Assembly: GCA_009760855.2 (NCBI GenBank)
Contig: WPIO01000065.1
Coordinates: 912,501-976,500, forward strand
Direction of reading: 5' to 3'
From: Cristatella mucedo
Taxonomy: Eukaryota; Bryozoa; Phylactolaemata; Cristatellidae
Length of the DNA: 64,000 bases
The notes under the pieces are model-generated. The model was not told the origin of the DNA and ran no database searches. It was given only the letters and a program-made list of their open reading frames with translations. Position 1 is the first letter of the stretch. Each line of letters begins with the position of its first letter. Below are positions 20,878 to 21,342 of the stretch, one piece after another. A program made the translations under genes and the position numbers.

Positions 20878-21342
20878 CTGCTGCTGCTGCTGCTGCTGCT
20901 GCTGCTGCTGCTGCTGCTGCTGCTGCTGCTGCTGCTGCTGCTGCTGCTGCTGCTGCTGCTGCTGCTGCTGCTGCTGCTGCTGCTGCTGCTGCTGCTGCTG
21001 CTGCTGCTGCTGCTGCTGCTGCTGCTGCTGCTGCTGCTGCTGCTGCTGCTGCTGCTGCTGCTGCTGCTGCTGCTGCTGCTGCTGCTGCTGCTGCTGCTGC
21101 TGCTGCTGCTGCTGCTGCTGCTGCTGCTGCTGCTGCTGCTGCTGCTGCTGCTGCTGCTGCTGCTGCTGCTGCTGCTGCTGCTGCTGCTGCTGCTGCTGCT
21201 GCTGCTGCTGCTGCTGCTGCTGCTGCTGCTGCTGCTGCTGCTGCTGCTGCTGCTGCTGCTGCTGCTGCTGCTGCTGCTGCTGCTGCTGCTGCTGCTGCTG
21301 CTGCTGCTGCTGCTGCTGCTGCTGCTGCTGCTGCTGCTGCTG
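20878..21342. repeat. uninterrupted (CTG)155 / (CAG)155 array
   Basis: By direct count, 155 perfect CTG triplets (465 bp) without one interruption. The flanks are GTCGGT on the left and CTCTTAAACG on the right. All frames through it are open (poly-Leu, poly-Cys and poly-Ala on plus; poly-Gln, poly-Ser and poly-Ala on minus), but neither flank shows a recognisable protein or a good splice context. Confidence 0.97.

Follow-up and report, generated by a model that had tools for sequence, protein, structure and literature searches.

Array length and purity

The stretch of Cristatella mucedo DNA analysed here (64,000 nucleotides; hereafter, the window) contains a perfect tract of CTG triplets, raising the question of how it arose and whether it marks a special site or is one of many such tracts in its genome. 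A scripted count over the whole window found 155 CTG units with no interruption at positions 20878–21342, the sole CTG run of at least six units, while no CAG run of at least six units occurs on the plus strand anywhere in the window. As a maximal perfect period-3 run, the array extends by a further CT to 20878–21344 on the plus strand (467 bases, 155.67 units), and the minus strand of this interval reads (CAG)n. Tandem Repeats Finder returned the identical span (100% matches, 0% indels, score 934), in agreement with the script and with the 155 perfect triplets counted in the original prediction. There are no N letters in the window. The expected number of such runs is <10^-237 (first-order Markov estimate), excluding a chance origin.

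Apart from the array, the longest perfect microsatellites of the window are far shorter (AG, 82 bases; TG, 61 bases; CA, 51 bases). With its perfect purity and 155 units, the array would belong among expanded uninterrupted CTG/CAG repeats, for which a threshold of ~50 units was taken, the length called pathogenic for DMPK (PMC12583562). Several other simple sequences were observed in the window, including an imperfect CAG-rich stretch (20179–20215, plus strand) located 700 bases to the left of the array and 76% complementary to it, a 15-base tandem repeat (GCCATCGGCAGCGAG) at 50869–51003 (8.8 copies, 90% matches), and homopolymers of 24 G and 24 C at 12555–12578 and 15785–15808, close to HMG exons.

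CTG/CAG arrays across the genome

The host assembly comprises 572,011,866 bases in 688 contigs, with the window in contig C614. As a pure array of n units yields n-k+1 overlapping matches to (CTG)k, the difference between successive values of k gives the number of arrays of at least k units; the exact-match counts were reported as whole, with the general caution that repeat counts are lower bounds. By this arithmetic the genome contains 1,767 pure CTG/CAG arrays of 10 or more units ((CTG)10, 27,641 matches; (CTG)11, 25,874 matches). Of these, 125 reach 50 units or more and average ~98 units ((CTG)50, 6,092 matches; (CTG)51, 5,967 matches). The reversed-motif control yielded 20 and 0 arrays at these two thresholds. 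For arrays as long as the one in the window, a pattern spanning 155 or 156 units, with five units fixed at each end and the middle unread, gave a net count of 23 arrays, pure or nearly so, that reach 155 units (1,471 minus 1,448 matches); this figure is rough because some matches are compound (on contig C61) or consist of a short run continuing into other sequence (C44).

Arrays at least as long as the one in the window include C22:1352057–1352611 (185 units), C48:54217–54774 (186 units), and one on C76 starting at 261077 (at least 171 units), all three apparently pure at both ends and over their first 80 letters, with unread middles. The original prediction had held a length like that of the array to be unusual; for this genome that view is not supported, given 125 pure arrays of 50 or more units and these three arrays elsewhere. 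As the genome contains more than a hundred long, perfect CTG tracts, the array looks like an expanded ordinary microsatellite and not a special site. A compound array was also observed at G000:C61:798582–799592, in which ATGGGAAGGATG segments break up the CTG runs at intervals. Long arrays are not ubiquitous: no CTG/CAG run of at least 10 units was present in 80 kb from other contigs (eight 10-kb stretches; longest run, 8 units), as expected from ~3 arrays per Mb.

The lengths of these arrays were compared with a geometric law, the only distribution considered. Among arrays of at least 10 units the mean excess over 9 units is 15.6 (27,641/1,767). The law set by their mean gives 126 arrays reaching 50 units, compared to the 125 found, but only 0.12 arrays reaching 155 units, compared to the rough net of 23. 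When the law is set at 50 units, its prediction for 155 units or more is 14, compared to the same rough net. Once pure arrays reach 50 units, their mean excess over 49 units is 48.7, a value independent of the near-pure pattern, and its contrast with 15.6 indicates a slower decay among long arrays, as would follow from length-dependent growth. The tail beyond ~100 units is heavier than a single geometric law allows, and plain slippage alone may thus be insufficient.

Long arrays in this genome extend to a second motif. Matches to (AC)75 (n = 16,540) and (AC)77 (n = 15,702) correspond to ~419 pure AC arrays that are 150 bases or longer, with a mean of ~227 bases, where the number of arrays is the mean of the two steps from 75 to 77 units. 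At the same minimum of 150 bases, there are 125 CTG arrays with a mean of ~293 bases; these are fewer than the AC arrays, but their tail is longer (mean excess over threshold, 146 bases for CTG compared to 79 bases for AC). The genome is therefore rich in long microsatellites of at least CTG and AC, with AC the one motif compared with CTG, and many long pure arrays of a second motif are what a microsatellite-rich genome would contain.

The genome-wide arrays also bear on the accuracy of the assembly. Long pure repeats are a recognised hard case for sequencing, and the length or purity of the array could for that reason be an artefact of assembly or base calling. This is unlikely, as arrays of many different lengths occur on many contigs, compound and interrupted arrays such as that on C61 were kept as such, and interruptions were retained in other microsatellites of the window. 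It is quite possible, though, that the exact number of units in the array is in error.

Neighbouring genes and coding potential

The array lies between an HMG-box exon, identified by sequence match at 17435–17641 and belonging to the gene nearest the array, and the tested cadherin stretches, which begin at 32594, both sets on the minus strand; this bears out the placement between HMG genes and a protocadherin originally proposed. Among the seven stretches submitted to Pfam, HMG boxes were found in 12655–13383, 15266–15772, and 17282–17662, cadherin domains in 32594–33361, 34399–34776, and 35328–35780, and a reverse transcriptase in 44770–45864, all on the minus strand. A weak HMG match of 17 residues (E = 0.004) occurs at 17806–17850. 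The HMG-box genes at 12655–17850 are adjacent to one another on the minus strand, with box B exons ~60% identical, and box A was detected in only one of them. A CpG-rich stretch at 18501–19000 (observed/expected, 1.40, compared to 0.83 for the window), ~2 kb from the array on the HMG-gene side, is possibly the promoter region of an HMG gene.

No recognisable gene crosses the array, consistent with the original prediction: six-frame translation of 17700–22400 returned no Pfam families in any of the six frames at E 0.1, and Rfam and tRNA scans of the window returned nothing. The array is open in all six frames, with the CAG frame extending 42 residues past it, but there is no ATG between the last stop before the array and the array in any of the six frames, and in the glutamine frame a stop stands 3 bases ahead of the CAG run, so that the run does not read as a polyglutamine-coding sequence. 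With no upstream ATG in six frames and no Pfam domain, a coding reading was rejected. When box A of the nearest HMG gene was used as a tblastn query, no second copy was found past the array, although a diverged exon could escape such a search; nothing thus indicates an intronic position for the array within this gene.

The array could still belong to an unrecognised gene, either within a polyglutamine exon on the minus strand that is reached by splicing or as a CUG/CAG repeat in a UTR or non-coding RNA. The open frames, with the extension of the CAG frame, and the nearby CpG-rich stretch would accommodate such a gene; the missing ATG, the stop just before the glutamine run, the lack of Pfam matches in the vicinity, and a right flank that consists of old repeat debris make it a quite improbable one.

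Flanking repeats and the inverted-repeat element

The two flanks of the array differ in character. The left flank (20078–20877) has a single match in its own genome, itself, in a DNA search that skips very common words, and beyond it are LINE fragments (19781–20076, minus strand as judged from the open reading frame at 27727–28203) with 73–83% identity to copies at 27689–28107 and 40276–40718. To the right, 12 bases separate the array from the right half of a terminal-inverted-repeat element (21357–21625, plus strand) that is truncated on the side of the array, and this is followed by the 3' end of a LINE that carries an (ATT)n tail (21749–22253, plus strand; 88% identity to the copy at 44542–45049). 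Elsewhere in the window, broken LINE copies with pieces of reverse transcriptase and (AAT)n or (ATT)n tails were observed at 4579–6538, 25938–29767, 40072–42497, and 44542–46129.

The stretch at 21357–21625 has 41 matches in the genome including itself, the 40 others having 66–85% identity over parts (40 of 50 candidates were scored). A consensus built from 19 other copies (L026–L044) is ~554 bases long with inverted ends, and the window copy is 75% identical to it over 21357–21607. Alignment of the inverted end places the right end of the element near 21625; the 28-base end (AAGCCGGGTTTACACGGCGAGTCTTGCT) has two differences from the opposite end. No target-site duplications could be read for the element, which is old, dispersed over 40 or more other sites of the genome, and MITE-like.

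Based on all-against-all coverage, ~14 of the 19 copies continue into a common left half at the place where the window copy has the array. The left flank was considered as a diverged version of this half and rejected, as 253 of 500 and 187 of 300 dinucleotide shuffles reached the observed score, while in the control comparison of the right half with the element none of 200 dinucleotide shuffles did so. With the shared left half replaced by the array and a left flank unlike it, the array marks a breakpoint within an old copy of the element.

The position of the array 12 bases from a dispersed element, in a window whose LINEs end in simple repeats, would fit a repeat carried in by a transposon as its tail or as an internal repeat. 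However, no CTG/CAG run of at least five units occurs at the matching edge in any of the 19 other copies, which indicates that the element did not bring the array and that the array is unlike a transposon-borne microsatellite. The one CTG/CAG array found near another copy, a pure CAG array of 46.3 units (L028, 2691–2829), is ~950 bases away from it. The LINE tails observed are (ATT)n and not CTG, the left flank is single-copy, and most copies proceed into the shared left half where the window copy has the array. On this evidence, judged with the flanks of only a few of the 125 long arrays, carriage by a transposon is very unlikely.

Age and proposed mechanism of the array

Over its 467 bases the array has not a single change. 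The adjacent LINE end, by comparison, has diverged by 12% from the closest copy within the window, and the half element by ~25% from the 19-copy consensus. At 6% per site, a fixed tract of the length of the array would be expected to hold 28 changes. Compared with its neighbours in this way, the present tract is either younger than the adjacent LINE and element insertions or held pure by turnover. The recent expansion suggested in the original prediction is thus supported in part, by a pure tract beside diverged repeats, but turnover fits the same observation equally well.

Both strands of the array are predicted to fold as DNA, with energies of -180.6 kcal/mol for (CTG)155 and -98.3 kcal/mol for (CAG)155, compared to -65.2 kcal/mol (s.d. 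5.9) for 20 letter shuffles of the array. Hairpins and length-dependent instability are established for the CTG/CAG motif (PMC3310812), and instability is a property of tracts that lack interruptions: an interruption in an 18-unit TCF4 allele cut the expansion rate 135-fold (PMC12935551).

Length, purity, the lack of an in-frame ATG, the adjacent truncated element, and the genome-wide distribution are all directly observed, and the array is probably a non-coding CTG/CAG microsatellite that grew through slippage and hairpin-prone synthesis. During replication or repair, the strands would fold into slipped hairpins, uninterrupted tracts would gain units, and longer tracts would gain them faster; the array would then be among the longer ones of its genome, situated among remnants of old repeats where a MITE-like copy breaks off. 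We infer slippage and hairpins as the cause, and in the same manner the recency of the tract, its present instability, and the absence of a function at the array.

Comparison with known systems

The array resembles the expanded tracts of human TCF4 and DMPK in motif and purity, and it exceeds the 50 units called pathogenic for DMPK (PMC12583562); long TCF4 alleles are mosaic by up to hundreds of units (PMC12935551). The array differs in its genomic setting, where 125 pure arrays reach 50 units or more. In having one triplet motif at very many places, the genome resembles that of Eimeria, where the motif is CAG (PMC9131526) and an AGC enrichment is also reported in PMC6387519. The Eimeria repeats are enriched in coding regions (PMC9131526), whereas the array at 20878–21344 has no in-frame start or overlapping gene. 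Perfect microsatellites far longer than the array exist, as reported in a survey of 719 eukaryotes that includes AAAT arrays of almost 52 kb and AAT arrays of up to 19.3 kb (PMC6387519). The long classes named in the portion of the survey available here are AT-rich, tetramers, or dimers, and that portion does not single out a long AGC class (PMC6387519).

In the prokaryote and viral sequence collections such arrays are few and shorter. Stretches matching (CTG)30 or more numbered five in the prokaryote collection and three in the viral collection, the longest with 45.7 units, and half of them (4 of 8) start within the first 10 bases of their contig. A pure CTG array of 45.7 units was observed on a Leclercia adecarboxylata chromosome (L004, 4957–5093), one of 33.7 units with the same flanks on a viral contig (L001, 740–840), and one of 45.3 units that has one flank in common with both on a further viral contig (L002, 7889–8024). 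Judged by these flanks, the three appear to represent a single bacterial or prophage locus whose repeat number varies between records. A weak literature search, conducted mostly at the level of titles and abstracts, returned no recognised account of long CTG arrays across an animal genome.

Implications for the genome

The single array belongs to a known kind, and the genome-wide tail of long arrays is the more interesting fact. A tentative and rather doubtful explanation of the tail is that the lineage lost, or never had, a restraint that keeps CTG/CAG tracts short, which would make the animal a naturally occurring model for tolerating expanded triplets. Such a restraint might involve mismatch-repair and related genes, with MSH2, MSH6, MLH1, and MLH3 as candidates alongside MSH3, PMS2, and FAN1, the last three being modifiers of TCF4 expansion (PMC12935551). 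The evidence bears on the distribution of the arrays and not on a mechanism of tolerance. If such a restraint is indeed missing, the animal lives with more than a hundred pure arrays whose lengths fall within or beyond the range pathogenic in humans, along with a second, slowly decaying tail of very long ones. Together, the 125 arrays and the heavy tail would make it possible to investigate how an animal copes with repeats that in humans are unstable or harmful, with mismatch repair, exclusion from transcripts, or neutrality as candidate routes.
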